This document shows, piece by piece, positions 42,959 through 59,245 of a stretch of 64,000 nucleotides of DNA (positions are counted from its first letter, which is position 1; the number at the start of each line of letters is the position of its first letter). Made by a program: the position numbers and the translations under genes. Source of the DNA: Ruegeria sp. SCSIO 43209 (lineage in GTDB: Bacteria > Pseudomonadota > Alphaproteobacteria > Rhodobacterales > Rhodobacteraceae); the NCBI RefSeq assembly GCF_019904295.1, contig NZ_CP065359.1, positions 1,637,001-1,701,000 of the forward strand, written 5' to 3'. The notes beneath the pieces are model-generated. The model worked only from the letters and a program-made list of their open reading frames with translations. It was not told the origin of the DNA and did no database searches.

Positions 42959-43653
42959 CTGGCGGTCTCCAATAATTCTGTCAGCGGGCGTATATGTGTG
43001 TCCGCGCCGTCGCGGATCAGCATACCGAAGCGCTCATCGGTGCCCAGAAAGACACCCCCTTCTCCAATAGGTTCTCCGACACCGCGCAGCAGCCCCATCC
43101 ACTCTGCGTGAAGCGGCGCGTTACCGTCCTCGTTCCAGCGGTTCAACCAGGTCAACATGTGACGCGACCAGCTCTCGACCAACTGCGTCGCAGAAACCTC
43201 GGCGCATCCTTCATCATAGAGCGAGGTAACATCCGGTGTTTCCCCCGGTGCATCGCTGGTTTGAAGCAAGGCCAGTTCCCAACCAACGATCAGCCAATCG
43301 GGAACCTCATCCACCTCGGCAGACGAGGCTGAGACTTTTATTGTCCCACATTTTGCACCGTTTACACAGATCAGCCCATCCCAACCCAAGTGCACCGCGA
43401 CCTCGGGCGGGGCCAGCGCGCCCAGCGCATTCTGGAACCCGACAGCACAAAGCGGCAGCATCGCCATAGCATCCCGCAACGGAACCTCGGGCGCGAATAC
43501 TATCGCAACGCGCAGACGATCCGCCTGAATATTGTGGACCACAGTTCCCGCGTCACAGCCCAGTGCTGCCATCGCCTGCGCCCGCTCGAACGGGTCTTCG
43601 CCAGCCTTGGCAGGTTGCCCTTTGAGCAATGGGGGAAAGACTGGCTGGGTCAC
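42955..43653 (-). CDS. Biotin/lipoate protein ligase-like protein (DUF4444 type)
   Basis: A 232-residue protein with a biotin/lipoate A/B ligase-like catalytic fold (about 25-170). It shows LRVAIVFAPEVPLRDAMAML, LGWDGLICVNGAKCGTIKVS (the place of the ligase lysine motif, here with K after CGT), and a C-terminal SH3-like domain (about 180-232, GVFLGTDERFGMLIRDG). Its true substrate is not known. It lies between mrp and the DUF6505-type gene with start/stop overlaps on both sides, and close to formate dehydrogenase genes. Confidence 0.8.
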   Translation of the reverse strand: MTQPVFPPLLKGQPAKAGEDPFERAQAMAALGCDAGTVVHNIQADRLRVAIVFAPEVPLRDAMAMLPLCAVGFQNALGALAPPEVAVHLGWDGLICVNGAKCGTIKVSASSAEVDEVPDWLIVGWELALLQTSDAPGETPDVTSLYDEGCAEVSATQLVESWSRHMLTWLNRWNEDGNAPLHAEWMGLLRGVGEPIGEGGVFLGTDERFGMLIRDGADTHIRPLTELLETAR

Positions 43654-44711
43654 GCGTTGCCCTTGGCAATCATGTCGCGGGCGATCTTGCGGAAGGCTTC
43701 GGCTTGCGGGCTATCAGGTTTGCTGACAACGATGGGGGCACCCCCGTCGGCGGCAACTCGGATATCCAGATGCAGCGGAATTTCCCCTAGCAATGGCACG
43801 CCCAGCGCCTCGGCTTCTGAGGCAACACCGCCATGGCCAAAGACATGTTCTTCGTGTCCGCAATTCGAGCAAATATGCGTCGACATGTTTTCGATCATCC
43901 CAACAATGGGCGTCTTGAGCTGGTTGAACATATCGATCCCCTTGCGGGCGTCGATCAAAGCAACATCCTGTGGGGTTGAGACGACAATGGCTCCATCCAC
44001 CTGAAACTTCTGGCTCAGCGTCAGTTGCACATCGCCGGTTCCGGGGGGCAGATCAACGATCAACACATCCAATGCGCCCCATTGCACCTGACTCATCATC
44101 TGCTGCAAGGCGCCCATCAGCATAGGGCCGCGCCAGACAACCGCCTGCCCTTCGTTGGTCATTAACCCCATCGACATCATGGTGACACCGTGATTGCGCA
44201 GCGGCAGGATCGTCTTGCCATCTGGGCTGGCCGGTCGCCCCGACACACCCAGCATCCGGGGTTGTGAAGGGCCATATACGTCTGCGTCCAACAGGCCTAC
44301 GCGACGGCCTTCAGCAGCCAGCGCGCAGGCGAGGTTAGCCGACACGGTGGACTTGCCCACGCCACCCTTGCCCGACGCAACCGCGATGATCCGGTCCACA
44401 CCGGGAACGGCCTGCGGTCCGGTTTGTGAGGGCTTGGGCTTGGGCTTCAAATCAGGCGGCGCCTTGTCCGAATGCGCGGTCAACATTGCCGAGACCTTGG
44501 AAACACCATCGACCATCTGCGCCGCCTGTTCGGCTGTGGCGCGTACGGGCTCCATCTTCTCGGCCTGTTTGGGATCGATCTCCAGCACAAACCGAACGGT
44601 ATCACCTTCAACATTCAATGCACGCACGATACCCGCGCTCACAATATCCTGACCAGAAACCGGATCGGTAATCTTCTTTAAGTTCGCTAGAACTGCATCA
44701 CGGATGCTCAT
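43650..44711 (-). CDS. mrp: Mrp/NBP35-type iron-sulfur carrier ATPase
   Basis: A 353-residue protein with an N-terminal DUF59/MIP18-like domain (about 1-80, LANLKKITDPVSGQDIVSAG) and a ParA/MinD-like ATPase. The deviant Walker A is VASGKGGVGKSTVSANLA near residue 112. LIVDLPPGTGDVQLTLSQ follows near 212, and the FeS-binding CxxC is in HICSNCGHEEHVFGHGG near 278. It carries [4Fe-4S] clusters to apo-enzymes. Its position beside an FeS-rich formate dehydrogenase locus suggests cluster delivery to it. A 23-codon ORF ends in an ATGA overlap with its start. Confidence 0.94.
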   Translation of the reverse strand: MSIRDAVLANLKKITDPVSGQDIVSAGIVRALNVEGDTVRFVLEIDPKQAEKMEPVRATAEQAAQMVDGVSKVSAMLTAHSDKAPPDLKPKPKPSQTGPQAVPGVDRIIAVASGKGGVGKSTVSANLACALAAEGRRVGLLDADVYGPSQPRMLGVSGRPASPDGKTILPLRNHGVTMMSMGLMTNEGQAVVWRGPMLMGALQQMMSQVQWGALDVLIVDLPPGTGDVQLTLSQKFQVDGAIVVSTPQDVALIDARKGIDMFNQLKTPIVGMIENMSTHICSNCGHEEHVFGHGGVASEAEALGVPLLGEIPLHLDIRVAADGGAPIVVSKPDSPQAEAFRKIARDMIAKGNA

Positions 44712-44779
44712 GCCGTCTTCCCCTTGATCCGCCCCGCGCTGGGCGCCTTGCGTATCGACAGAATATAGTCGCCGCTCAT
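44708..44779 (-). CDS. Candidate 23-residue leader ORF upstream of mrp
   Basis: From the ATG at 44779 a 24-codon frame reads MSGDYILSIRKAPSAGRIKG and ends KTA, with its stop in an ATGA overlap with the mrp ATG at 44711. GGAG lies about ten bases upstream of the start. The peptide is basic (net positive), with no membrane segment. It could be a real small protein or only a device that couples mrp translation. Below normal gene-caller length; evidence is the overlap and start site. Confidence 0.45.
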   Translation of the reverse strand: MSGDYILSIRKAPSAGRIKGKTA

Positions 44780-44843
44780 TGCATGTGTCTCCGTCTCATT
44801 TTGTACATTTGACGCATCGGGTCAGCCGCCGTTAGGCTTAACC

Positions 44844-45572
44844 ATGCGCTTTGTCCTGTTGTGCCTGAGCCTGACGCTCACCGCCACCCCCTCTTGGTCG
44901 CAAGAGGCATTGGGCCTTGCCGCCCCGGATGAGGTGACAAACTCAGGTCTTTTGCAACATATTCTTCCGCGCTTTTCTCTCAAGACCGGAATACGTGTTG
45001 TTGCGGATGAAAGCGGCGTCATGTCACTGGCCCCGAGTTCGCCCGGCGATCCGGTCTTTGCCCGTGACGGGGTGGTCTATCATCTACGAATCGACGACAG
45101 CGCCAAGCAGGTAAGGTTTCGTGAATGGCTACTTTCCGACATTGGCAGACGGACGGTTGAAAACTTCATCCCCGACGAGGGCACGCCCTTTAGCGCAAGT
45201 TTCGAAACTGCCACTGTTACCAAAGAGGTCGTGGTCGACGGAAACGCGCTGCTTGGCGAAGATCTGTCGATGACCCATTGTGGCCGGTGCCACGTAATTG
45301 GCCCAAAGAATCGGATGAACGGGCTGGGTTCGACCCCGTCTTTCGCAGTGCTGCGCGCAATGCCCGACTGGTCGGAACGGTTTCAGGCGTTCTTTGCCCT
45401 GAACCCACACCCAGCTTTCACGCAGATCGAGGGCATCACCGAACCTTTCCCGCCCGAGCGCCCCTCGCCGATCCATCCGGTCGAGATGAGCCTGGATGAC
45501 CTCGAAGCAATTCTGGCTTTCGTGACCGCCATGCGCGCCGCCGATCTGGGCGCGCCACTGCAACTTCAGTGA
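44844..45572 (+). CDS. Cytochrome c with a shortened TupA-like N-terminal domain
   Basis: A 242-residue exported protein: signal peptide (about 1-19, ending SWSQ), a domain of about 100 residues, then a cytochrome c domain with the haem site CGRCH at 146-150. The first domain matches the tungstate-binding protein encoded at 56967 at both its ends. NSGLLQHILPRFSLKTGIRV here corresponds to NSGLLDYILPGFEAETGIDV there. VRFREWLLSDIGRRTVENF here corresponds to QRFIDWLTGPDGQAAIASY there. The roughly 130 residues between are missing, including the ligand pocket region. It is divergent from the mrp operon and converges with a 7-base overlap on the polyferredoxin gene. Probably a periplasmic electron carrier or sensor for the formate dehydrogenase. 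Confidence 0.8.
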   Translation: MRFVLLCLSLTLTATPSWSQEALGLAAPDEVTNSGLLQHILPRFSLKTGIRVVADESGVMSLAPSSPGDPVFARDGVVYHLRIDDSAKQVRFREWLLSDIGRRTVENFIPDEGTPFSASFETATVTKEVVVDGNALLGEDLSMTHCGRCHVIGPKNRMNGLGSTPSFAVLRAMPDWSERFQAFFALNPHPAFTQIEGITEPFPPERPSPIHPVEMSLDDLEAILAFVTAMRAADLGAPLQLQ

Positions 45573-47521
45573 TCCTTGCGCTTTGAAAGGTAATCATCCG
45601 TTGTGACAACCCGTGGTCTGGGGGCGGATTGAAACGGATTGTCAGCGCTATGGAACTGGGCGTTCACCCGGCAATTGTCGCACATCTGGATCATCCGCGC
45701 CTGATCCGAGGTCGCGAACATCGGATGTGTGCCCGACAACTTTTCCATGATCCGCTCAACCGTTGATTTAACGCCAAACGCTGCGCCGCATTCGACGCAT
45801 TCAAAGGGTTCCTCTTCATTCAGCACCTGTTGTGACAGCGCTTGGTCGCTCAGATCAAGCTGGGGCACTAGTGTGATCGCCTGTTCTGGGCAGATCGTTC
45901 GGCAAATCCCGCATTGCAGGCAGGCGTCCTGCTGGAAATTCAACTGCGGCTTCTCCGGGTTATCGATCAGCGCCCCCGATGGGCAAAGGGACACGCAACT
46001 CAGGCACAATGTACAGGTGTCGGTATTCACTGCAATCGCGCCATAAGGCGCGCCCTCGGGCAGGGCCAGCGGCACCTCGACCTCCGGGTTCAAAGCTTGC
46101 GCCGCCAGACGCGCTATTTGACGACGATTACCCAGTGGAAGCACCGGATCGGCCAATGGCTGCGGAACATTCTGCGCATAAAGCAGATCTGCCAGCGCAT
46201 CCGGGTCGGTTTCATCGATCAGACTCAGCGCGTCGTACTCTGCGATTGCCCGAGCCAGCTCTAATTCACGATCAAGCGCGTCCCGTTCGGTCTTGGGGCT
46301 AATCAGGATATCGGCGCGCGCAAAGCCATGCGCCAGCGCTGCGAGCATCTCGGCATGTCCAAAGCCCGAAACCACATTCAGCTCCAGCGGAATGACATCC
46401 GCTGGCAGTCCCCGTCCAAACCGGGCCGCCATCCGGATCATCTGCGCCCCATGGGCGTCGTGCACCAGTAGTCGCGGTGCAACGCCGCCCGCGCGCCGGA
46501 AGGTCCGGGCCAGTATGTGCATCCGCGACAATACCGCCGAGACCGGAGGATCTTCATATGTGATGGCAGTCGACGGGCACAACGCCGAACACTCACCGCA
46601 CCCAGCGCAAATCATCGGATCAATGGCTACATGATCGCTAGCTGGTGTGATCGCACCGGTCGGGCAGACGTCCAGACAGTTTGAACACCCCGTTTGTTCC
46701 GCTCGCGAATGGGCGCAAAGCGTCTCATCCAATCGGACATAGAGCGGTTTTTCAAAGGTCCCGACCAGTTGCACCGCTTCAAAAGCAAGACGCGCGACGG
46801 CCACCGCATCGCGGGGATCAGCGCGCAAGTACCCCTCGCGCTTTTCGGGGGCATTTACCAAAGGTGTTGCTCCGGTCAGATCAACGACAATGTCGCAACG
46901 CGACGTTGCACCGTCACGGGGTGTGCTCCAACCAAATTCTCCGCGTCCACCGGGTTCTAGTTGCTGCACCTGATCCAGATGCCAAACAAATCCGCCCAGC
47001 GCGCCGGTCAGTCTGCGTATTCGTGCGCGCGCTACGTCATAGTTGCGGCTTAGCGGTTCTGCATCGTCAACCACAATTACAGTCACTGCCAACACAGCGG
47101 ACAGCTGTTCGGCCAACGGAAAGACAACCTCTCCGGGCCCCACAATACAGCAGGTACCTTCACTGATGACATCGAAACTTGGGGTCACTGGCTGCGGCAG
47201 TAATGCCTCAGCCGCGAGCGCAGCCATTTTGGGGGTTGCATCGGTCCCCTGTTCGGACCAGCCAGCTCGGTCGCGCAGATCGACAAATCCGGGGGCTTCA
47301 ACACCCAGTTCCTCGGCAAGCTCGCTAAAAACTGCACTTTCCTGAGCGCAAGCAAACACCACCTGCTCATCGCCCGTCATCAACTCGGCGGCAGTTTGAA
47401 TCTGGCGCGTACAAAGGGCGGTATGCACCTTCGAGCACTCCGTATCGCAGGCTGCAGAAATACCATCTGCGTTCAGGGACTGCGTCCCCTCGCAATCACA
47501 CAATATGAGCTTGCTGGCCAT
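45566..47521 (-). CDS. Polyferredoxin, 4Fe-4S protein of the formate dehydrogenase locus
   Basis: The start is placed at 47521 (MASKLILCDCEGTQ) with GGGAGGGG directly upstream, giving 651 residues; frames further upstream lack a site. There are at least three ferredoxin-like clusters: CSNCLDVCP and CAGCGECSALCP near residues 275-320, then CTLCLSCVSLCP near 515 and CLQCGICRTICP near 547. A zinc-ribbon-like pair lies near the end (FECVECG, MCDNCRVN). The N-terminus has a CDC/CDTEC cysteine group. It is soluble and divergent from the DUF3305-fdh operon. Its job is probably electron supply for enzyme maturation or oxidation; this is inference. Confidence 0.88.
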   Translation of the reverse strand: MASKLILCDCEGTQSLNADGISAACDTECSKVHTALCTRQIQTAAELMTGDEQVVFACAQESAVFSELAEELGVEAPGFVDLRDRAGWSEQGTDATPKMAALAAEALLPQPVTPSFDVISEGTCCIVGPGEVVFPLAEQLSAVLAVTVIVVDDAEPLSRNYDVARARIRRLTGALGGFVWHLDQVQQLEPGGRGEFGWSTPRDGATSRCDIVVDLTGATPLVNAPEKREGYLRADPRDAVAVARLAFEAVQLVGTFEKPLYVRLDETLCAHSRAEQTGCSNCLDVCPTGAITPASDHVAIDPMICAGCGECSALCPSTAITYEDPPVSAVLSRMHILARTFRRAGGVAPRLLVHDAHGAQMIRMAARFGRGLPADVIPLELNVVSGFGHAEMLAALAHGFARADILISPKTERDALDRELELARAIAEYDALSLIDETDPDALADLLYAQNVPQPLADPVLPLGNRRQIARLAAQALNPEVEVPLALPEGAPYGAIAVNTDTCTLCLSCVSLCPSGALIDNPEKPQLNFQQDACLQCGICRTICPEQAITLVPQLDLSDQALSQQVLNEEEPFECVECGAAFGVKSTVERIMEKLSGTHPMFATSDQARMIQMCDNCRVNAQFHSADNPFQSAPRPRVVTTDDYLSKRKDH

Positions 47522-47716
47522 TTCCCCTCCCGACGCTGCGTTCTGCCCCATCAGCAGCTTAGACCCAATCCGCGCCGAGGCAATGCGAAGCATCAGAGAA
47601 AATCCCGATATGTGCATTATTTTTCATCACAATTCGCCATCAAAACCTGAAGTTGGGAATAAACTCTAAGTGAATGTCTCATATTAGGCGAAACTAGACT
47701 TGGCAGGTCGCCAATT

Positions 47717-47727: not shown

Positions 47728-47771
47728 GTACATCAATGGAAGGCAGGGGAGAGCCTTCCGGGGAGGAGCCA

Positions 47772-48326
47772 GTGGCCAAGGCCGCAAGCCGGACTGAAAT
47801 GACAATTGGCGTCGTCGTGCGCAGAACACCCGGGGTGACACGCTGGGCGCGTTGGAACTGGCGCGCGGTCGCTGTTTTGCCAGGTGCAGGGCCTGCCGAC
47901 TGGCAAGAGTTGCGACGTGAAGGTGAGGCCATCGAATACCATGCAGCCACCCTGCCCCTCACGCTCTGGGCCGATGAAACCGAAGCCTACATGGTCAACC
48001 TGTCGGACGGTCAACCTTCGCTGTACCTGGTTTTGCGGGATGAGCTGAAAGGCGAAACACCCCTGAATGCCGTATTGATCACCGCCTCACCGTTCGAGGG
48101 GCAGGATTATGCGGATACCGGCGAAGAGATCGTTGAGAAGATTCCGATGACCGAAGGGTTGATTGCATGGCTCCGCGATTTCACCCTGCAGCATCATCAG
48201 GACGAGGTGTTCATAAAACGTAAACGGGACAAGAAACGCACCGATCTGGTGGAAGACGGCAAGGGCGATGCACGAATCCGGCAGGATTCAGATGTCTACC
48301 GGGCTCCGCGTCGGGTGCTGCAATGA
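47772..48326 (+). CDS. DUF3305 protein, formate dehydrogenase accessory
   Basis: A GTG start at 47772 with GGGAGGAG just upstream is preferred; an ATG at 47736 in frame has no site. The product of 184 residues is soluble, with TPGVTRWARWNWRAVAVLPG near residue 19 and a middle ETEAYMVNLSDGQPSLYLVL. DUF3305 proteins are found with DUF3306 and TorD-type genes before formate dehydrogenase genes; the function is unknown. The stop overlaps the next start by four bases. Confidence 0.85.
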   Translation: MAKAASRTEMTIGVVVRRTPGVTRWARWNWRAVAVLPGAGPADWQELRREGEAIEYHAATLPLTLWADETEAYMVNLSDGQPSLYLVLRDELKGETPLNAVLITASPFEGQDYADTGEEIVEKIPMTEGLIAWLRDFTLQHHQDEVFIKRKRDKKRTDLVEDGKGDARIRQDSDVYRAPRRVLQ

Positions 48327-48904
48327 CCCAGGCCCGCGATTTCTGGTCCCGCCGCAAGGCCGCCGTTCAGGCCGAGACCGAAGCAGAAGCTCTGGCCGCA
48401 GAGGAACAGATCATCACAACGCGGCAAGCTGAGCTGGAGGAAAAAAGCGACGCTGAAATTCTGGCCGAGTTTGATCTGCCCGATCCCGATACACTGGAAG
48501 CCGGCGATGATGTCTCGGGCTTCATGGCCAAAGCTGTACCTGACCGTCTGCGCCGCCGCGCCTTGCGGCGCCTATGGCGGTTGAATCCTGTTCTGGCCAA
48601 TGTCGACGGGCTGGTCGATTACGGCGAGGATTATACCGATGCGGCTTGCGTGATTGAGAACATCCAGACCGCGTATCAGGTTGGCAAAGGTATGTTGGCG
48701 CATGTCGAAGCGCTCGCTGCCGAGGCAGAAATGTCCGAAGCAGAAACGGAAGCTGACATGCCCGAGGCGATCGAGTCAGATGCAGAACCGATCAACGCCG
48801 TCGAACCTGAACCGGAAGCCCCACAGATGGCTGAAATGGAAGAGCCAGAGGAGATCGAACTCCCCCCTGCTCCACGCCGTATGAAATTCGAATTCGAAGG
48901 ATAA
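48323..48904 (+). CDS. DUF3306 protein, formate dehydrogenase accessory
   Basis: A 193-residue protein. The N-terminal half is charged (MTQARDFWSRRKAAVQAETE) with a conserved core LPDPDTLEAGDDVSGFMAKA, then VPDRLRRRALRRLWRLNPVLA near residues 70-95, followed by GLVDYGEDYTDA. The C-terminal quarter is a low-complexity Glu/Pro/Met-rich tail (about 130-193). It is probably an assembly or anchoring factor for the dehydrogenase; the function is not known. Overlaps the DUF3305 gene. Confidence 0.85.
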   Translation: MTQARDFWSRRKAAVQAETEAEALAAEEQIITTRQAELEEKSDAEILAEFDLPDPDTLEAGDDVSGFMAKAVPDRLRRRALRRLWRLNPVLANVDGLVDYGEDYTDAACVIENIQTAYQVGKGMLAHVEALAAEAEMSEAETEADMPEAIESDAEPINAVEPEPEAPQMAEMEEPEEIELPPAPRRMKFEFEG

Positions 48905-48908
48905 CTCT

Positions 48909-49520
48909 ATGACCGCAGACAACGCGCAAACATTGGATATCTCGACTGAGGATCGTCTGCGTGCGGATTTCTATAATTTTCTTGGCCTGCTATTGGCCGG
49001 TCCACCCGATCAGTTGCTTCTGGATCAGATGGCCGGGCTAAGCGGTGATGACTCGGATCTAGGTCAGGCCATTCGGGCAATGGCACGGGTGGCCAAGGTG
49101 ACCAAGCCTGCCGCCGCAGAGCGCGAATTCAACGCACTTTTCATCGGATTGGGCCGAGGCGAACTGCTGCCTTATGCCTCTTTCTACCTGACGGGCTTTC
49201 TGAACGAAAAACCCCTGGCGCAGCTGCGCAATGACATGGCCGCGCGAGGCATCACCCGGGCGCAGAATGTTTATGAACCCGAAGACAACATCGCCTCGCT
49301 AATGGAAATGATGGCGGGCATGATCGTCGGTCGGTTCGGCGCGCCCGCCACGCTGGAAGATCAAAAGGCGTTCTGGAGCAAACATATCGGGCCCTGGGCC
49401 GCGCATTTCTATTCGGATTTGGAAGGTGCCGAGAACTCGGTTCTCTACGCCTCGGTCGGCACGGCTGGTCGGGTGTTCATGGAGATCGAACGTGAAGCCT
49501 TTCGAATGACGGCGGCCTAG
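48909..49520 (+). CDS. TorD/DmsD-type molybdoenzyme chaperone
   Basis: A 203-residue, all-helical cytoplasmic protein starting MTADNAQTLDISTEDRLRAD. Family features are FYNFLGLLLAGPPDQLLL near residue 22, EFNALFIGLGRGELLPYASF near 75 (the E-x-x-x-L-F pattern of the TorD family), and YEPEDNIASLMEMMAGMI near 118 with the conserved EPEDHI-like signature. It should bind the Tat leader of the FdhA subunit or of the small Tat-target protein until the cofactor is loaded. Confidence 0.87.
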   Translation: MTADNAQTLDISTEDRLRADFYNFLGLLLAGPPDQLLLDQMAGLSGDDSDLGQAIRAMARVAKVTKPAAAEREFNALFIGLGRGELLPYASFYLTGFLNEKPLAQLRNDMAARGITRAQNVYEPEDNIASLMEMMAGMIVGRFGAPATLEDQKAFWSKHIGPWAAHFYSDLEGAENSVLYASVGTAGRVFMEIEREAFRMTAA

Positions 49521-49870: not shown

Positions 49871-52765
49871 ATGCTTAGGAAAAAGACCAACGGGGTTGCG
49901 AGACGCCCCCAGCGGACAAGTATCCTGTCCCAGGTCGGCGAGAAAACCGTCGATCGCCGCGCATTCTTGCGTGGCTCGGGCCTGACGATCGGCGGCCTTG
50001 CCGCGATCAGCGCCACGGGTGGAACCGTGACGCCCGCCAGTGCCCAGACAGCGGCAAACACCGCCGTTGAGAATATCAAATCCGTATGCACTCACTGCTC
50101 GGTCGGCTGCACGGTCGTTGCCGAGGTACAGAACGGAGTCTGGATCGGGCAGGAACCCGGCTGGGATAGCCCATTCAATCTGGGTGCACACTGCGCCAAG
50201 GGGGCCTCGGTGCGCGAGCACGCCCATGGCGAGCGCCGCCTGAAATATCCGATGAAAAAGGAAGGTGGCGAGTGGAAGCGCATCAGCTGGGAAGAGGCGA
50301 TCAACGAGATCGGCGATGGCATGATGAGCATCCGCGAAGAATCCGGGCCGGACAGCGTGTACTGGCTGGGGTCTGCGAAGCACAATAACGAACAGGCCTA
50401 TCTGTTCCGCAAGTTCGCCGCCTATTGGGGCACGAACAACGTGGACCATCAGGCCCGTATCTGCCACTCGACCACTGTCGCGGGTGTTGCGAATACATGG
50501 GGCTACGGCGCCATGACCAATTCGTACAACGACATGCACAACAGCCGGGCCATCTTCATCATCGGTGGTAACCCGGCCGAGGCGCACCCCGTCTCGCTGC
50601 TGCATATCCTGCGTGCGAAAGAGCAGAACAATGCGCCTTTAATCGTCTGTGACCCGCGCTTTACGCGCACCGCGGCCCATGCGGATGAATATGTCCGCTT
50701 CCGCCCCGGTACCGACGTCGCTCTGATCTGGGGTATCCTGTGGCATATCTTCGACAACGGCTGGGAGGACAAAGAGTTCATCCGCACCCGTGTCTGGGGG
50801 ATGGACCAAATCCGGGAAGAGGTTGCCAAGTGGAACCCGGATGAGGTTGAGCGCGTCACCGGTACGCCCGGCTCGCAGCTGCGCCGCGTCGCACGGACCA
50901 TGGTGAACAACCGCCCCGGTACCGTTGTATGGTGCATGGGTGGTACGCAGCACACCAACGGCAACAACAACACTCGCGCCTACTGCGTGCTTCAGCTTGC
51001 GCTTGGCAACATGGGCACCTCAGGTGGTGGCACCAACATCTTCCGCGGCCATGACAACGTGCAAGGCGCGACAGACCTTGGTGTTCTGTCCCATACCCTG
51101 CCCGGCTACTATGGCTTGTCAAAAGGCGCATGGGGTCACTGGGCCCGTGTCTGGGGTGAAGAGCCCGAGTGGCTTGCAGGCCAGTTCGCCACGATCAAGG
51201 ATAAGGAAGGCAAGGATAAACCGCTGCAGAATGAGCGCGGCATCCCGGTTTCCCGCTGGATCGACGGTGTTCTCGAAGACCCAGCTAACATGGATCAGGA
51301 TAACAACGTCCGCGCCATGGTTCTGTGGGGCCACGCGCCCAACTCGCAGACCCGGATGACGGAAATGAAGACGGCGATGGAGAAGCTGGACATGCTGGTC
51401 GTGATCGACCCGTATCCCACCGTCTCGGCCGTGCTGCATGACCGCACCGATGGCGTCTATCTGCTGCCCGCCTGTACGCAGTTCGAAACCCGTGGCTCGG
51501 TCACGGCCTCGAACCGATCGCTGCAGTGGCGGGACCGCGTGGTCGAACCTCTGTTCGAAAGCCTGCCGGACGAGGTCATCATGGCCAAGTTCGCCAACAA
51601 GTTCGGCTGGGCGGATCGGTTCTTCCGCAATATCGAGATGGAAGATCCCGAAACCCCGAATGTTGAAAGCATCACGCGTGAGTTCAACAGCGGCCTTTGG
51701 ACAATTGGCTATACCGGTCAGTCGCCGGAACGTCTGAAAAGCCATATGGCCAACCAGCACACGTTCGACAGAACCACGCTGCAAGCCATTGGTGGCCCCA
51801 ACGACGGCGAGTATTACGGTCTGCCCTGGCCTTGCTGGGGAACGGCTGAGATGGGTCATACGGGGACACCAAACCTGTATGATATGTCCAAACCGGTGGC
51901 CGAAGGCGGCCTGACCTTCCGCGCCCGTTTCGGCGTGGAACGGGATGGTGACAACCTGCTGGCCGAAGGGGTCTATAGTGTTGGGTCGGAAATTCAGGAT
52001 GGTTATCCGGAATTCACGATGCAGATGCTGATGGACCTTGGCTGGGACGGTGACCTGACGGCTGAGGAACGTGCGGCCATCGACGCCGTTGCGGGACCAG
52101 AGACCAACTGGAAAACCGACCTTAGCGGCGGTATCCAGCGGGTCGCGATTGCCCATGGCTGTGCGCCCTTCGGGAACGCAAAGGCACGCGCGGTCGTATG
52201 GACCTTCCCGGATCCGATCCCACTGCACCGCGAGCCACTCTATACAAACCGGCGCGATCTGGTGGAGGACTATCCAACCTACGATGACCGTCAGGCCTAT
52301 CGTCTACCTACCCTTTATGCGTCGATCCAAAAGAACGACTTTTCAAAGGATTACCCGATAATCCTCACGTCTGGTCGTCTGGTCGAGTATGAGGGTGGCG
52401 GCGATGAGACGCGGTCGAACCCGTGGCTGGCTGAGCTCCAGCAAGACATGTTCGTCGAGATCAATCCGCGCGATGCCAACAACCTTGGTATTCGGGACGG
52501 ATCACAGGTCTGGGTCGAAGGTCCTGAGGGCGGCAAGGTCAAGGTGATGGCGATGCTGACTAACAGAGTCGGCGCCGGTGTCGCCTTCATGCCCTTCCAC
52601 TTTGGCGGCCATTTCCAGGGCGAAGACCAGCGGCACAAGTATCCTGCCGGTGCAGACCCCTATGTGCTGGGTGAAAGTACCAACACCGCCCAGACCTATG
52701 GCTATGATTCAGTGACCCAGATGCAAGAGACCAAAGCGACTCTCTGCAAAATCTGGTCAGCGTAA
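49871..52765 (+). CDS. fdhA: Formate dehydrogenase alpha (catalytic) subunit, Tat-exported
   Basis: A 964-residue molybdopterin (or tungstopterin) enzyme oxidising formate to CO2. The N-terminus has a twin-arginine motif [20 protein letters not shown] at 28-47. The [4Fe-4S] cluster is bound by C73, C76, C80 and C108 (VCTHCSVGC ... AHCAKG). The active-site residue is Cys198 in [19 protein letters not shown], the place of selenocysteine in E. coli FdnG, so no selenium is needed. The C-terminal dinucleotide-binding part includes [20 protein letters not shown]. The start has GGGAGGAAAG upstream. The adjacent tupABC genes suggest tungsten as the metal. It works in the periplasm with FdhB and FdhC. 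Confidence 0.96.
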
Positions 52766-52776
52766 GGAGGACGATA

Positions 52777-53370
52777 ATGGCTAGAGCAAAGTTTCTCTGC
52801 GACGCTGAACGCTGCATCGAGTGTAACGCCTGCGTAACCGCGTGTAAGAACGAGCACGAGGTGCCGTGGGGCATCAACCGCCGCAGGGTGGTGACGATCA
52901 ATGACGGCAATCCGGGTGAACGCTCGATCTCGGTGGCCTGTATGCATTGTTCGGATGCGCCCTGCATGGCGGTGTGCCCGGTCGACTGCTTCTATCAGAA
53001 CGAAGAAGGGGTCGTCCTGCACTCCAAGGACCTGTGCATTGGCTGCGGCTATTGCTTCTATGCGTGCCCCTTCGGCGCGCCGCAATACCCGCAGGCGGGC
53101 AACTTCGGATCGCGAGGCAAGATGGACAAATGTACCTTCTGTGCTGGCGGCCCCGAGGAAACGCACTCGACCGCAGAGTTCGCCAAATACGGTCGCAACC
53201 GGATCGCAGAGGGCAAATTGCCCATCTGCGCCGAGATGTGTTCTACCAAGGCCCTGCTCGCCGGCGATGGCGACGTAGTCTCGGCTATTTACCGCGAGCG
53301 TGTCGTCGCGCGCGGATTTGGTTCGGGCGCTTGGGGTTGGGGCACGGCCTACGATCAGAAAGACGGCTGA
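52777..53370 (+). CDS. fdhB: Formate dehydrogenase beta (FeS) subunit
   Basis: A 197-residue ferredoxin-like subunit with four [4Fe-4S] clusters: [12 protein letters not shown] (near 13), [14 protein letters not shown] (near 55), [12 protein letters not shown] (near 88) and a split fourth set (CTFCAGG; CAEMC). It carries electrons from FdhA to the cytochrome b subunit. It has no signal peptide of its own and is presumably carried out with FdhA through Tat. It follows fdhA after 11 bases. Confidence 0.95.
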
Positions 53371-53391
53371 ACCCGTCTACTAAAGCAAAAC

Positions 53392-53417
53392 GGATGACCC
53401 GCAGATGTGGGTCATCC
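53392..53417 (+). repeat. Hairpin between fdhB and fdhC
   Basis: GGATGACCC (53392-53400) pairs perfectly with GGGTCATCC (53409-53417) around an 8-base loop. Some AT-rich sequence with TTTTTATT follows about ten bases later. It may be a partial terminator or processing site that lowers fdhC expression relative to fdhAB; the T run is too far for a classical terminator. Confidence 0.55.
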
Positions 53418-53443
53418 TGCATTGGATTTTTATTGAGGTTCCG

Positions 53444-54652
53444 ATGTTGCGCTTATTCATCGCTTTCCTGCTTTCGCTAACGCTGACCCAAGTTGCGGGC
53501 GCTCAAACCAGTGAGGGGGCCGCCCCTGCGGATTCGACCGACCGGTCTACAACCGGCGGCGCGACCACGCTTGAGGACATTCTGGCCCGCCAGCGTGGCG
53601 AGAAGGTCGACAACAGCTACAGGTCTGAAAACACCGGTCAGGGCAATGTTGAAGGCCTGCTGGGACAGTTCGGCACCCATGGTGTTGCCTCTGACAGTGA
53701 CGTCTACCGCGCGCTGCGTTACGGATCTGCGGACGTCACCGTTTCATCCCAGGGACCTGCGGACAGCGTGCTGATTCAAGACGGCGGCATGTGGTGGTTG
53801 AACTTCCGAACTGGCCCGTTGCGTGAATATGGAACCTACATTCTGGGCGGAATGCTTGCGATCATTGTGCTTTTCTTTCTGATCCGAGGAAAAATCCGCA
53901 TCGACGGAGAAAAAACCGGCCGCACGGTCCTTCGTTTCAATAGTTTCGAACGTTTCGGTCACTGGCTCTTTGCCGGGTCGTTCCTTGTGCTCGGCATCAC
54001 AGGCCTGCTGACCCTTTATGGCCGCGATTTCTTGATCCCGGTCTTTGGCAAAGAAGGGTTCGCCACTATCGCGCAAGGGTGCAAGTGGCTTCACAACAAC
54101 CTCGCATGGGCCTTCATGTTGGGTCTGATAATCATCACCATAAACTGGATTGCCCATAACATCCCCAACAAGACCGACCTGAAATGGTTGGCCGCCGGAG
54201 GGGGCTTGTTCACCAAAGACAGCCATCCACCAGCCAAGAAATTCAATGCGGGTCAAAAGATAATCTTCTGGGCTTGCATTCTACTGGGTGTCTCTATCAG
54301 CCTGTCAGGCCTGTCGCTGCTATTCCCGTTCGAGCTGCCGATGTTCGCCAAAACCTTCTCAATCGCCAATTCGACAGGTATTCCGCAGGCGTTGGGTCTG
54401 AACCTGCCAGTGCAGATGTCACCGCAGGAAGAGATGCAATATGCCCAAGTTTGGCATGTCATGGTCGCCTACGTGTTCATCGCCATCATCATCGCCCATA
54501 TCTACCTTGGCTCGGTGGGCATGGAGGGTGCGTTTGACGCCATGGGCACCGGTGAAGTCGAAGAACAATGGGCACGCGAGCACCACTCGCTGTGGCTGGA
54601 AGAGCTGCAAGAAAAAGAGGCCGGCAAGGCATCGGCCTCACCTGCAGAATAG
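53444..54652 (+). CDS. fdhC: Formate dehydrogenase gamma subunit (cytochrome b556)
   Basis: The start is set at 53444 (MLRLFIAFLLSLTLTQVAGA, a signal peptide) with GAGG upstream; an in-frame ATG at 53405 lies in the hairpin. The product of 402 residues has a periplasmic N-terminal extension of about 120 residues, one helix near 140-160, and a four-helix cytochrome b core (about 180-380). Haem ligand histidines are in FNSFERFGHWLFAGSFLVLG and KWLHNNLAWAF, then VWHVMVAYVFIAIIIAHIYL. It passes electrons from FdhB to the quinone pool. Its stop touches the next ATG. Confidence 0.93.
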   Translation: MLRLFIAFLLSLTLTQVAGAQTSEGAAPADSTDRSTTGGATTLEDILARQRGEKVDNSYRSENTGQGNVEGLLGQFGTHGVASDSDVYRALRYGSADVTVSSQGPADSVLIQDGGMWWLNFRTGPLREYGTYILGGMLAIIVLFFLIRGKIRIDGEKTGRTVLRFNSFERFGHWLFAGSFLVLGITGLLTLYGRDFLIPVFGKEGFATIAQGCKWLHNNLAWAFMLGLIIITINWIAHNIPNKTDLKWLAAGGGLFTKDSHPPAKKFNAGQKIIFWACILLGVSISLSGLSLLFPFELPMFAKTFSIANSTGIPQALGLNLPVQMSPQEEMQYAQVWHVMVAYVFIAIIIAHIYLGSVGMEGAFDAMGTGEVEEQWAREHHSLWLEELQEKEAGKASASPAE

Positions 54653-55915
54653 ATGCGCTGGCTCGCTCTTGCGCTTGTTTTGACCCCCCTGCCCGCCTGG
54701 TCCGAGTTTTTCACGCTCAAAGGCCATGGCGGGCCGATCATGGGGATCGCTTCGGCACCGGATGGGCGCATCGCAACGGCCAGTTTCGACAATTCGGTCG
54801 GTCTCTGGACCGGACAGACACCGGAATGGCTGGAGGGGCACGAAGCGGCAGTGAACTCGGTCGTTTTCAATGGCACTGCAATCTATTCTGCCGGGGATGA
54901 CTTCACCCTCCGCCGCTGGCCCGGCGGGGATGTAGTCGGGCAGCACAAAGGCAAGATTATCGGCATTGCAGCGTCGAAAACTCATATCGCGACGGCCAGC
55001 TGGGATGGTACCATCGGCCTGTGGCCGGTGGACGGGTCCGAGCCGACCCTGCTTGGGCCAATCGGCAGCGGGGTGAATGCAGTTGTTTTTACGCCGGACG
55101 GAAAGCAGCTTTATTCGGCAGGTGTCGACGGAGCGTTGCGTATCTGGGATGTCGCCAGCGGTCAGGAAACAAATCGCCTGATCGAGCATGGTTTTGGCAT
55201 CAATGAATTGGTCCTGAACGCACAAGACAACTGGATCGCCTACGGTACCGTCGATGGAGTGACACGCATCCTGAGCCTCACCACCGAAGAAGAACATGAC
55301 TTTACGTTGGATCGGCGCCCGATCCTCGCCATGGCACTGAGCCCCGATCGCAAGCTGTTGGCTGTCGGCGATGGTGAAGGCTTTATAATGGTCATCGACA
55401 CTTTCGAATGGCGCATTGCACAAGATTTCCGTGCCACCCTGCGCGGTCCGGTTTGGGCGCTCGCTTTTTCTGCAGATGGTCAAAATCTTCACGCAGGCGG
55501 CATTGATGAGGCAATGTACAGCTGGCCCGTTTCAGCGCTGGGCGATAGCGAACAGATGGCCGCTGCCGAACCCAGCTTTCTGAAAGACCCAAGCGAGATG
55601 GGCAACGGAGAACGGCAATTTGCACGCAAGTGTTCGATCTGTCACAGCCTGACGCCGGATGGAGGTCGACGTGCGGGCCCTACCTTGCACGACATCTTTG
55701 GGCGGAAGGCGGGCACATTGCCCGATTATTTGTACTCGGATACGCTGCAAGACTCTGATATTATTTGGAATGAAGAGACAATAAATGCTCTTTTCGACGA
55801 AGGCCCGGACCACTACATTCCGGGGTCAAAGATGCCAATGCAGCGGATCACGCAAGCACAGGACCGGTTAGATCTGGTCGCGTTTCTGCGCAGCGCCACC
55901 GCACCGCAGGATTGA
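54653..55915 (+). CDS. WD40 propeller fused to cytochrome c
   Basis: A 420-residue exported protein. After a signal peptide (residues 1-17, ending PAWS) I count seven WD40-like repeats, a full propeller. The blades end SFDNSVGLW, GDDFTLRRW, SWDGTIGLW, GVDGALRIW, TVDGVTRIL, GEGFIMVID and GIDEAMYSW (residues about 20-300). Then a class I cytochrome c domain follows with haem site CSICH at 327-331 and a likely Met ligand in GSKMPM near 390. The start directly abuts the fdhC stop, so it belongs to the dehydrogenase operon. It may be a periplasmic electron acceptor docked to the complex; its function is not known to me. Confidence 0.88.
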   Translation: MRWLALALVLTPLPAWSEFFTLKGHGGPIMGIASAPDGRIATASFDNSVGLWTGQTPEWLEGHEAAVNSVVFNGTAIYSAGDDFTLRRWPGGDVVGQHKGKIIGIAASKTHIATASWDGTIGLWPVDGSEPTLLGPIGSGVNAVVFTPDGKQLYSAGVDGALRIWDVASGQETNRLIEHGFGINELVLNAQDNWIAYGTVDGVTRILSLTTEEEHDFTLDRRPILAMALSPDRKLLAVGDGEGFIMVIDTFEWRIAQDFRATLRGPVWALAFSADGQNLHAGGIDEAMYSWPVSALGDSEQMAAAEPSFLKDPSEMGNGERQFARKCSICHSLTPDGGRRAGPTLHDIFGRKAGTLPDYLYSDTLQDSDIIWNEETINALFDEGPDHYIPGSKMPMQRITQAQDRLDLVAFLRSATAPQD

Positions 55916-56966: not shown

Positions 56967-57782
56967 TTACTGTGCGTTTGGAAAAAACAACTGCTCACCA
57001 TCCAGCGTGTAAGACGCAATCGCCGCCTGTCCATCAGGACCGGTCAGCCAGTCGATGAACCTCTGCCCGGCAGCGGCGCGGACGCCTGTGTGCTTTTCAG
57101 GGTTCACAAGGATTACACCATATTGGTTAAACAGGCGCGGATCGCCCTCGACCAAGACCTCCAGATTGCCCCGGTTTCTGAAGGATAACCAGGTTGCCCG
57201 GTCGGTCAGAGCATACGCGTCCATGCCGCTGGCCACGTTCAGCGTTGCCCCCATCCCCGATCCGGTCTCGCGATACCAAGTCCCCGACGCCGCCGTCGGG
57301 TCAACGCCTGTCGCCTCCCAATTGCGCATTTCGGCTTTGTGGGTCCCGCTGTCATCCCCGCGCGAGGCAAAGGGTACCTTCGTTTCGGCCACAGCTGTCA
57401 AAGCGGTTGTAATGTCGTTGCCCCCGGCAATTCCGGCCGGATCAGATTTTGGGCCAACCAATACAAAATCATTGTACATGACATCGAACCGTTCGACGCC
57501 CCAACCGTCTGCCACAAACTGCTCTTCGGCGGGCTTGGAATGAACCAGAAGAACATCGCCATCGCCGTTGATTGCGTTCCGGATCGCCTGACCGGTCCCG
57601 ACGGCCACAACCCGTACATCGATACCTGTTTCAGCCTCAAACCCTGGCAGGATATAGTCCAGCAGACCCGAGTTCTGCGTCGAGGTCGTGGATTGCACGA
57701 CGATAAAGGGTTCTTCCGCCAAACCTGCGCCTGTGGTCAGTCCAAGCGCGACAATTGATGCCCGAACGAAATCAGGGATCAT
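56967..57782 (-). CDS. tupA: Tungstate-binding periplasmic protein
   Basis: A 271-residue protein with a signal peptide (about 1-22) and the TupA signature VQSTTSTQNSGLLDYILPGF at residues 29-48. The oxyanion-binding regions are around AVGTGQAIRNAINGDGDVLL (60-79), SRGDDSGTHKAEM near 143 and ETGSGMGATLNVAS near 170. It captures tungstate with high selectivity over molybdate. The genes tupB, tupC and tupA follow one another on the minus strand, with tupA last. Confidence 0.92.
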   Translation of the reverse strand: MIPDFVRASIVALGLTTGAGLAEEPFIVVQSTTSTQNSGLLDYILPGFEAETGIDVRVVAVGTGQAIRNAINGDGDVLLVHSKPAEEQFVADGWGVERFDVMYNDFVLVGPKSDPAGIAGGNDITTALTAVAETKVPFASRGDDSGTHKAEMRNWEATGVDPTAASGTWYRETGSGMGATLNVASGMDAYALTDRATWLSFRNRGNLEVLVEGDPRLFNQYGVILVNPEKHTGVRAAAGQRFIDWLTGPDGQAAIASYTLDGEQLFFPNAQ

Positions 57783-57804: not shown

Positions 57805-58539
57805 TCAGGTTACCAGACCGCCAGCCAGATACCGGCGCGACTCGTTGCTTTTGGGGGCTTCCAGAACCTGCTGCGCCCTTCCGTGTTCCACCACACGCCC
57901 TGCCTGCATCATCACGATGTCAGATGCCAGGCGCCGCGCCTGCCCGATGTCATGCGTCACCATCACGATGCGCACACCCCGGGCCGAGGCACGCAGGACC
58001 ATCCGCTCGATCATCTGCATGGCGCTTGGATCCAATGCACTGGTGGGTTCGTCCAGAAACAAGGTCCTGGGGTCTAAGGCCAACGCGCGCAGGATCGCCA
58101 ACCTTTGCGCCTCGCCACCAGACAGCGAACGCGCGGATTGACGTGCCTTGCCATCCAGTCCACCTTCGGCCAGCAAAGCTTCGATACGATGCCTGCGCAA
58201 GGCACGGGGCATCGATTTCCGCTTTAGCACAAAGTCCAGATTGGCCGCGACCGAGCGGCGCAGCAGCACGGGGCTTTGAAACACCATCGCCTGCCGCGCT
58301 TTGTGGGCTGCATTCAACACAACACCGTCCTGACAGACACGCCCGCTGTCGGGTTGAATCAGACCATGCAGACAACGCAGCAACAGACTTTTGCCAGCGC
58401 CGTTTGGACCCAAGATCATGGTCGGACCCGGGCCCTCCAGACACAAATGCGGGACATCGAGCAGCACCTTGCCTTCGCGTGCAATGTGCAACCCGTGGAC
58501 CTCCAACATGCCCGGCACCTCGGTTACGACATCACGCAT
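57805..58539 (-). CDS. tupC: Tungstate ABC transporter ATP-binding protein
   Basis: A 244-residue ABC ATPase with Walker A ILGPNGAGKSLLLRCL near residue 43, the signature LSGGEAQRLAILRALAL near 140 and Walker B RTLFLDEPTSALDPSA near 163. It powers tungstate import with TupA and TupB. Its start overlaps the tupB stop by eight bases. Confidence 0.92.
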   Translation of the reverse strand: MRDVVTEVPGMLEVHGLHIAREGKVLLDVPHLCLEGPGPTMILGPNGAGKSLLLRCLHGLIQPDSGRVCQDGVVLNAAHKARQAMVFQSPVLLRRSVAANLDFVLKRKSMPRALRRHRIEALLAEGGLDGKARQSARSLSGGEAQRLAILRALALDPRTLFLDEPTSALDPSAMQMIERMVLRASARGVRIVMVTHDIGQARRLASDIVMMQAGRVVEHGRAQQVLEAPKSNESRRYLAGGLVT

Positions 58540-59245
58540 GGCGCAGCCCTTCCCGCTCGGCCCGCAGGGTCAATGCGCTGACTATCGCGTTTACCGCCAC
58601 GGCCAAACCGATCAGGATCACACCCAAGGCCAGCGCCAGCGCCAAGTTCCCCTTCGAAGTCTCAAGCGCAATCGTGGTCGTCATCACGCGCGTCACGTGA
58701 TTGATATTGCCGCCGACGATGATCACTGCGCCTACCTCGGCGATTGCCCGGCCAAACCCGGCCAGTAATGCGGTGACCAGAGCCAGACGCGCGTCCCACA
58801 ACAGCACCGGGATCGAAGCCAACCGCGATACGCCGAGCGAGCGGAGTTGTTCAGAATACTCCTCGGCCAGCATCTCGACCACCTGCCGGGTAAGTGCGGC
58901 CATGATCGGCGTCACCAGCACCACCTGCGCTATGATCATTGCGGTGGGGGTGTAGAGAAGTTCCAGCACCCCCAAAGGACCGGATCGGGACAACATCAGG
59001 TAGACCAGCAAACCGACGACGACTGGTGGGAACCCCATCAGAGCGTTCACAAGGATAATCAGCGCCCGCCGTCCCGGAAACCGCGCGACGGCCAAAGCTG
59101 CCCCAATAGGCATCCCGATGACCGCCGAAATCAGAACAGCAAAGATCGAAACACGCAGCGACAACAACACAATTGCCCACAGCTCTGCATCCCCTTCGAG
59201 GATCAGCGAGAGCGCCTGAGTGAATTCTGATGCAAATCCCTGCAT
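58532..59245 (-). CDS. tupB: Tungstate ABC transporter permease
   Basis: A 237-residue inner-membrane protein with about five helices. It has the EAA-type loop region EYSEQLRSLGVSRLASIPVL near residue 130 and helix 1 near 20-42 (VSIFAVLISAVIGMPIGAAL). It is the first gene of the tup operon. The gap upstream to 59353 contains no gene; a promoter is expected there but I see no convincing operator. Confidence 0.9.
   Translation of the reverse strand: MQGFASEFTQALSLILEGDAELWAIVLLSLRVSIFAVLISAVIGMPIGAALAVARFPGRRALIILVNALMGFPPVVVGLLVYLMLSRSGPLGVLELLYTPTAMIIAQVVLVTPIMAALTRQVVEMLAEEYSEQLRSLGVSRLASIPVLLWDARLALVTALLAGFGRAIAEVGAVIIVGGNINHVTRVMTTTIALETSKGNLALALALGVILIGLAVAVNAIVSALTLRAEREGLRHA

Follow-up and report, generated by a model that had tools for sequence, protein, structure and literature searches.

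The tungstate-binding protein TupA is the closest described relative of the front part of the protein considered here. According to PMC5517513, lobe B of the D. alaskensis TupA comprises residues 91-200, the ligand candidates (DaG20 numbering) are Thr9-11, Ser12, His59, Arg118, Thr124 and Asp170, and the structures 3muq and 3kn3 are classed with TupA. A working precedent for the role proposed below is provided by MxaJ/XoxJ, which occur together with a cytochrome and methanol dehydrogenase (PMC9728263 and PMC7391723). The DUF3305 and DUF3306 proteins are reported to occur with fdh operons (PMC4464133). The window, i.e. the whole stretch of 64,000 nucleotides from Ruegeria sp. SCSIO 43209 that was analysed (contig NZ_CP065359.1, positions 1,637,001 to 1,701,000), contains a gene, here termed cytX (44844..45572, + strand), whose 242-residue product joins a TupA-like lobe to a cytochrome c. 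The initial annotation knew of no described family with this layout, and we likewise found no description of a TupA-lobe/cytochrome c fusion in the open-access literature.

The CytX protein begins with a signal-like segment (residues 1-20; 44844..44903, + strand, as for all features of the gene), for which a helix is predicted over residues 2-13 and whose signal nature is suggested by its sequence. It is followed by the TupA-derived single-lobe domain (residues 21-120; 44904..45203), supported by profile matches and AlphaFold confidence, a variable linker (residues 121-131; 45204..45236) with a dN/dS of 0.63 and a pLDDT of 74 over residues 121-130, and a monohaem cytochrome c domain (residues 132-242; 45237..45569), identified by the Pfam Cytochrom_C matches of family members. 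The last includes the haem-binding motif CGRCH (residues 146-150; 45279..45293), in which C146, R148, C149 and H150 are invariant in the cytX alignment, and His189 (45408..45410), the predicted distal haem ligand. The fusion of a TupA-derived domain to a haem module, as originally proposed, is supported. CytX represents a real family, as the genome and neighbourhood counts given below show. All 37 same-genus genomes, the source genome included, carry the gene, and the homologues are full-length and free of stops in all 36 of the others searched. With the window protein alone as query, the closest named matches come from Ruegeria. Plasmid-borne copies are seen in Tateyamaria omphalii, three Sagittula records and Sulfitobacter sp. 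S190 (with L252 and L253 among the loci studied here), and the surrounding formate dehydrogenase (FDH)-type neighbourhood was examined in T. omphalii and Sulfitobacter sp. S190; these plasmid records annotate the product as "hypothetical protein" (four of five) or "c-type cytochrome" (one of five). A promoter scan of cytX returned three promoter-like matches against 0.5 expected, two of them intragenic and one on the opposite strand. The terminator scan at cytX found none, and no relatives were found in viral contigs.

In the window, cytX is divergently oriented to a gene for an Mrp/ApbC ATPase (43650..44711, - strand; Pfam) and convergent with one for a 683-residue 4Fe-4S protein (45566..47617, - strand; Pfam), the ends of cytX and the latter overlapping by 7 bases. 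Between the Mrp gene and cytX lies a 23-codon ORF (44712-44783, - strand) that looks like a remnant; among five further Ruegeria records compared, three (L160-L162) have it too, and a 63-residue DUF6494 gene occupies its place in Tateyamaria and Sulfitobacter. Downstream are genes for DUF3305, DUF3306 and a TorD-type chaperone (47736..49520, + strand; Pfam), and for a cysteine-type FdhA, FdhB and FdhC (49871..54652, + strand), called from the ORFs, with FdhC matching the NCBIfam model formate-DH-gamm; the corresponding neighbours in a public plasmid are annotated as formate dehydrogenase alpha and fdh3B. A WD40-cytochrome c fusion (54653..55915, + strand; Pfam) follows fdhC. Further on is TupA, a full-length relative (56967..57782, - strand; tung_bind_TupA E 9.7e-64, 215 bits; PF12849 2.1e-46), and then ORFs for TupC and TupB (57805..59245, - strand), named by position and the context given in the initial annotation. 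Beside tupA is a regulator combining HTH_17 with PBP_like (PF12727; 56055..56927, + strand; Pfam), so that this locus has put a binding-protein domain to new use twice.

The relationship of the N-terminal domain to TupA had been noticed by matching two segments of CytX to the window TupA, and both matches hold. The first, NSGLLQHILPRFSLKTGIRV (CytX 33-52), aligns to TupA 37-56 with a single-pair BLASTP E-value of 7e-6 (in the BLASTP pair the TupA numbering runs one lower, its first codon having been omitted), and a second segment in this comparison, with E = 4.3, is alone not significant. Profile comparisons give two distinct blocks of similarity to TupA, which follow the TupA order and are each above chance by themselves; the second is a 39-column ungapped block that includes VRFREWLLSDIGRRTVENF (CytX 90-108) and matches the last part of TupA. 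For the first and second blocks, hhalign gives P-values of 2.4e-7 and 6.4e-11 with all 47 TupA rows; with the 13 rows of the subgroup to which the window TupA belongs they are 1.7e-8 and 5.8e-12, and with the 34 rows of the other subgroup 1.3e-4 and 2.4e-8. Control profiles of NMT1-type solute-binding proteins (6 rows) and of the HTH-PBP regulator (16 rows) gave no match (P 0.15 to 0.51). These comparisons used 96 members of the cytX family and a TupA set from which six odd-length rows were excluded, L097 being further left out of alignment A2. When PDB sequences were searched with the N-domain profile, the top matches were 3muq (1.7e-6), 5my5, i.e. TupA (1.1e-5), and 3cvg, a putative metal-binding protein (2.7e-5), with both halves in order in 3muq and 5my5 and one half weak in each; a maltose-binding chain was also matched (E 0.011). 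Among 385 genomes of the class, matches to the N-terminal part alone proved in all 11 loci checked to be full TupA proteins from other families, with 54-66% identity to the window TupA.

Of the two family profiles originally suggested for checking this picture, only that of TupA responds, and for part of the members. At E <= 0.1 the NCBIfam TupA model NF041772 matches 35/96 sequences, with a best value of 1.7e-6 and no match to the window CytX; no CytX member was seen to reach its 400-bit cut-off, which the window TupA (215 bits) misses too. PF12849 matched no member at E <= 0.1 across all 96. Other solute-binding Pfam matches are confined to SBP_bac_11 and SBP_bac_1 (two members each) and SBP_bac_6 (one), and no family in the Pfam and NCBIfam scans outscores TupA on this domain. 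Judged by these sequence profiles, the front domain of CytX is derived from TupA, with two portions of lobe A retained.

The firmly aligned blocks pair CytX 20-61 with TupA 24-65 and CytX 91-116 with TupA 241-266. They are separated by 29 residues in CytX versus 175 in TupA, which means that about 146 residues are missing; the loss of the middle thus stands, at a size larger than the 130 or so first estimated. These block limits come from a simple profile alignment in which the middle part (62-90) is unreliable; a global hhalign run gave a forced, poor N-terminal placement and was not used for them. Arg118, Thr124 and Asp170 of TupA belong to lobe B, which is absent from CytX, and together with His59 they correspond to missing positions or to the unalignable middle. 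The TTTS motif is replaced, its TTS portion being invariant in 46/46 TupA rows and present in 0/96 CytX rows. CytX has hence lost the whole of lobe B as well as the motif in lobe A that provides tungstate ligands, in agreement with the earlier claim that the oxyanion pocket was lost. The lobe has no conserved histidine, the most frequent being found in at most 42 of 96 rows. By eye, L132, L151 and L155 show a segment like DADILI or GADVVI, which resembles GDVLLV of TupA.

An AlphaFold2 model built from 96 sequences has a mean pLDDT of 91.3 and a pTM of 0.64, with residues 21-120 at 96-98 in all ten blocks; the lobe predicted alone reaches a mean pLDDT of 91.6 and a pTM of 0.81. It comprises predicted strands at 23-26, 52-54, 60-63, 69-74 and 77-82 and helices at 29-34, 36-48, 87-97 and 99-107. 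The top ten Foldseek matches of the lobe include the TupA-type chains 3muq, 5my5, 3lr1 and 3kn3, with 5my5 superposing at 1.5 A over 57 columns. The Foldseek E-values are weak (best 4.7e-3), and the TupA alignments span about 57 columns, none across both halves; ModA, LysR effector domains and maltose-binding protein are also listed, and an unrelated-looking chain, 8g8w_C, ranks second. The predicted fold is binding-protein-like, as opposed to the unrelated fold that would have spoken against the original proposal, and the hairpin 69-82 may close the hinge where lobe B stood.

In the haem domain, the cysteines and histidine of the CxxCH motif (C146, C149 and H150) are invariant in 96 rows. Pfam Cytochrom_C matches 78/96 members at E <= 0.1, the window CytX reaching only 0.071, below the Pfam cut-off. 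His189 is, like His150, invariant in 96/96 rows, and no methionine, the distal ligand of class I cytochrome c, is invariant among them, which suggests that the haem is probably ligated by two histidines (His150/His189). The commonest methionine, M158, is present in 65/96 rows, so that the predicted histidine ligation follows from invariance alone. The PH motif is also seen by eye in ten cytochrome-only sequences included in our tree.

To place the gene in its wider context we used a sample of 295 genomes from the family, 106 of which have cytX matches. The two-domain form was counted in 103, leaving out G271 (TupA only) and G064 and G114 (cytochrome only); six of the 103 (G068, G162, G193, G218, G258 and G304) were counted on their matches alone. 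In G064 and G114 (L153 and L154) the cytochrome-only form and the DUF3305 genes are on different contigs. The neighbourhood counts refer to 95 loci, i.e. 100 minus L148 and L149 (TupA) and L153, L154 and L156 (cytochrome-only), in stretches that extend from cytX by about 4 kb on the upstream side and 15 kb on the downstream side, and they hold for loci that were selected because they carry cytX. A convergent gene for the 4Fe-4S protein, DUF3305 and DUF3306 are each present in 95/95, FdhA in 94/95 (92 of these have the active-site cysteine and two are truncated), a divergent Mrp gene in 89/95 and the WD40-cytochrome in at least 61/95, the last a lower bound. The cytX gene therefore lies in a conserved FDH neighbourhood. 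At the level of genomes, DUF3305 is found in 102/103 of those with the two-domain form versus 36/192 of the others (Fisher p 8e-47). Nine FDH-accessory loci from genomes without the two-domain form showed no cytX. The initial annotation had placed the gene in an FDH-linked locus, which these counts corroborate. It had also asked whether homologues always stand beside a cysteine-type fdhA with tupABC; a constant link to tupABC is not supported, TupA being found within the locus stretch in at least 50/95 cases, a lower bound given that only some 4 kb on the upstream side was covered. The idea that cytX tracks the tup genes was rejected on this count, on the distant TupA genes of some genomes and on the lack of an association beyond that of FDH itself. 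L225 has two TupA genes in tandem, about 1 kb apart, which both share about 60% identity with the window TupA.

Cytochrome-only relatives are found in other families. One of these (L234) has the gene order of the window, and four others (L235, L236, L239 and L241) lie near FDH genes. L156 and L238 have the 4Fe-4S protein in their stretch, L156 also DUF3305, with no other FDH-type genes; L237, L240 and L242 have no FDH-type neighbours within the stretch. The presence of such relatives in other families, several of them in FDH loci, suggests that the lobe was probably added later. In a tree of 63 rows, which comprises 53 fused sequences (about half) and 10 cytochrome-only ones and is midpoint-rooted, with many weak forks and an unsettled bootstrap, seven cytochrome-only rows stand apart and three are nested among the fused rows. 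This requires four changes, e.g. one gain and three losses of the lobe, and the nested rows indicate that the lobe can be lost. Among 30 Ruegeria sequences the median dN/dS is 0.149 for the lobe (427 of 435 pairs used), 0.626 for the linker (256) and 0.052 for the haem domain (384); L009 (243 codons) and pairs beyond the dS limits were left out, and the values are rough because dS is near saturation and out-of-limit pairs were dropped. These ratios indicate that the lobe and the haem domain are both under purifying selection in Ruegeria. Across 96 rows from 96 genera R43 and W95 are invariant, and G35, P42, F44, K47 and G101 nearly so.

Retention of the lobe in the absence of the parts forming the oxyanion cleft makes a role in protein contacts the simplest reading, and the TupA lobe has probably been reused as a docking handle. 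The best explanation of the whole, which we advance tentatively and regard as a little short of probable, is that CytX serves the FDH3-type FDH locus as an accessory cytochrome in the periplasm, its lobe docking a low-potential haem. The lobe would no longer bind an oxyanion and would serve as a rigid docking module, with the conserved PRFSLKT helix and Trp95, by which the haem, of low potential and probably ligated by His150 and His189, is held on a partner in the periplasm. This partner would most likely be FdhABC or its WD40-cytochrome, and electrons from formate would gain a periplasmic route additional to the quinone route through FdhC. The position of cytX outside the fdh operon, as judged by orientation, counts against this explanation, as do the DUF3305-positive genomes without the two-domain form, the cytochrome-only rows nested among the fused ones, the weak Foldseek values of the lobe and the frequent M158. 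Its most specific version, in which a tungstate-uptake protein related to the TupA of the same locus has been cut to one lobe and become an arm placing the haem on a tungsten/molybdenum FDH, such that formate electrons bypass the quinone pool into periplasmic cytochromes, appears rather doubtful.

CytX might instead help to activate or assemble the exported FDH, as proposed for XoxJ with XoxF, with the lobe binding immature FdhA or FdhB and the haem serving activation or redox sensing. Its location among maturation-type genes (Mrp, the 4Fe-4S protein, DUF3305/3306 and TorD) would suit such a function; however, what stays constant across the family is the cytochrome domain, which favours electron transfer, and the two-domain form is missing from 36 of 138 DUF3305-positive genomes, which also implies that cytX is not required for FDH. 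On balance we consider an assembly function unlikely. Less credible still is that the lobe mimics a binding protein and docks on the TupBC permease, the redox state of the haem gating tungstate import. Of the two TupA subgroups, CytX is indeed closer to the one that contains the window TupA, and TupA is present somewhere in 101/103 two-domain genomes, but once the comparison is restricted to DUF3305-positive genomes no association remains beyond that of FDH (100/2 versus 35/1, Fisher p 1), and in G315, G248 and G201 the sole TupA match and cytX, though on one contig, are more than 0.5 Mb apart. Both lobes of binding proteins normally engage the permease, which further counts against this possibility and leaves it improbable. 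The N-terminal domain could also be a decaying, functionless passenger, as the three cytochrome-only forms nested in the fused clade and its lower mean identity to the window CytX (38% versus 57% for the haem domain) might imply; yet the difference in dN/dS between lobe and linker, and the invariant and nearly invariant residues noted above, make this very improbable. Convergence or a general trait of class II binding proteins in place of descent from TupA, for which the ModA, LysR and maltose-binding matches could be cited, deserves hardly any credence given the lead of 3muq and 5my5, the full TupA proteins at all 11 N-part loci and the failure of two other binding-protein-type families to match.

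In CytX, then, a binding-protein lobe survives alone, stripped of partner lobe and ligand motif, selected in Ruegeria and conserved across 96 genera. It draws attention to a cytochrome, so far unstudied, that belongs to the FDH3 system in many marine bacteria. Were formate oxidation in these organisms coupled to periplasmic cytochromes as our preferred docking explanation would have it, the energy yield of formate would change. When compared with TupA (NF041772; PDB 5MY5, 3LR1), CytX shares the N- and C-terminal portions of lobe A, their order unchanged; TupA consists of two lobes with a central cleft, whereas CytX has one predicted compact domain fused to a cytochrome c. As in class I cytochrome c (PF00034), to which 78/96 members show the weak Pfam match, its CxxCH is near the domain start, but it has an invariant histidine and no invariant methionine. 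The cytochrome-only relatives at alphaproteobacterial FDH loci (L234, L235, L236, L239 and L241) have a CytX-like haem domain with the PH motif but, unlike CytX, no TupA lobe. Finally, the pairs of MxaJ/XoxJ with cytochrome cL (MxaG/XoxG) may offer a parallel, in that a binding-protein-like periplasmic partner and a cytochrome c are there encoded beside a dehydrogenase, and CytX may be viewed as their fused analogue. The MxaJ/XoxJ families are absent from the Pfam and NCBIfam matches of CytX members, and the likeness is one of analogy only: those systems consist of two separate proteins, with two lobes and a PQQ enzyme, whereas CytX combines a single lobe and a cytochrome in one polypeptide at an FDH locus.
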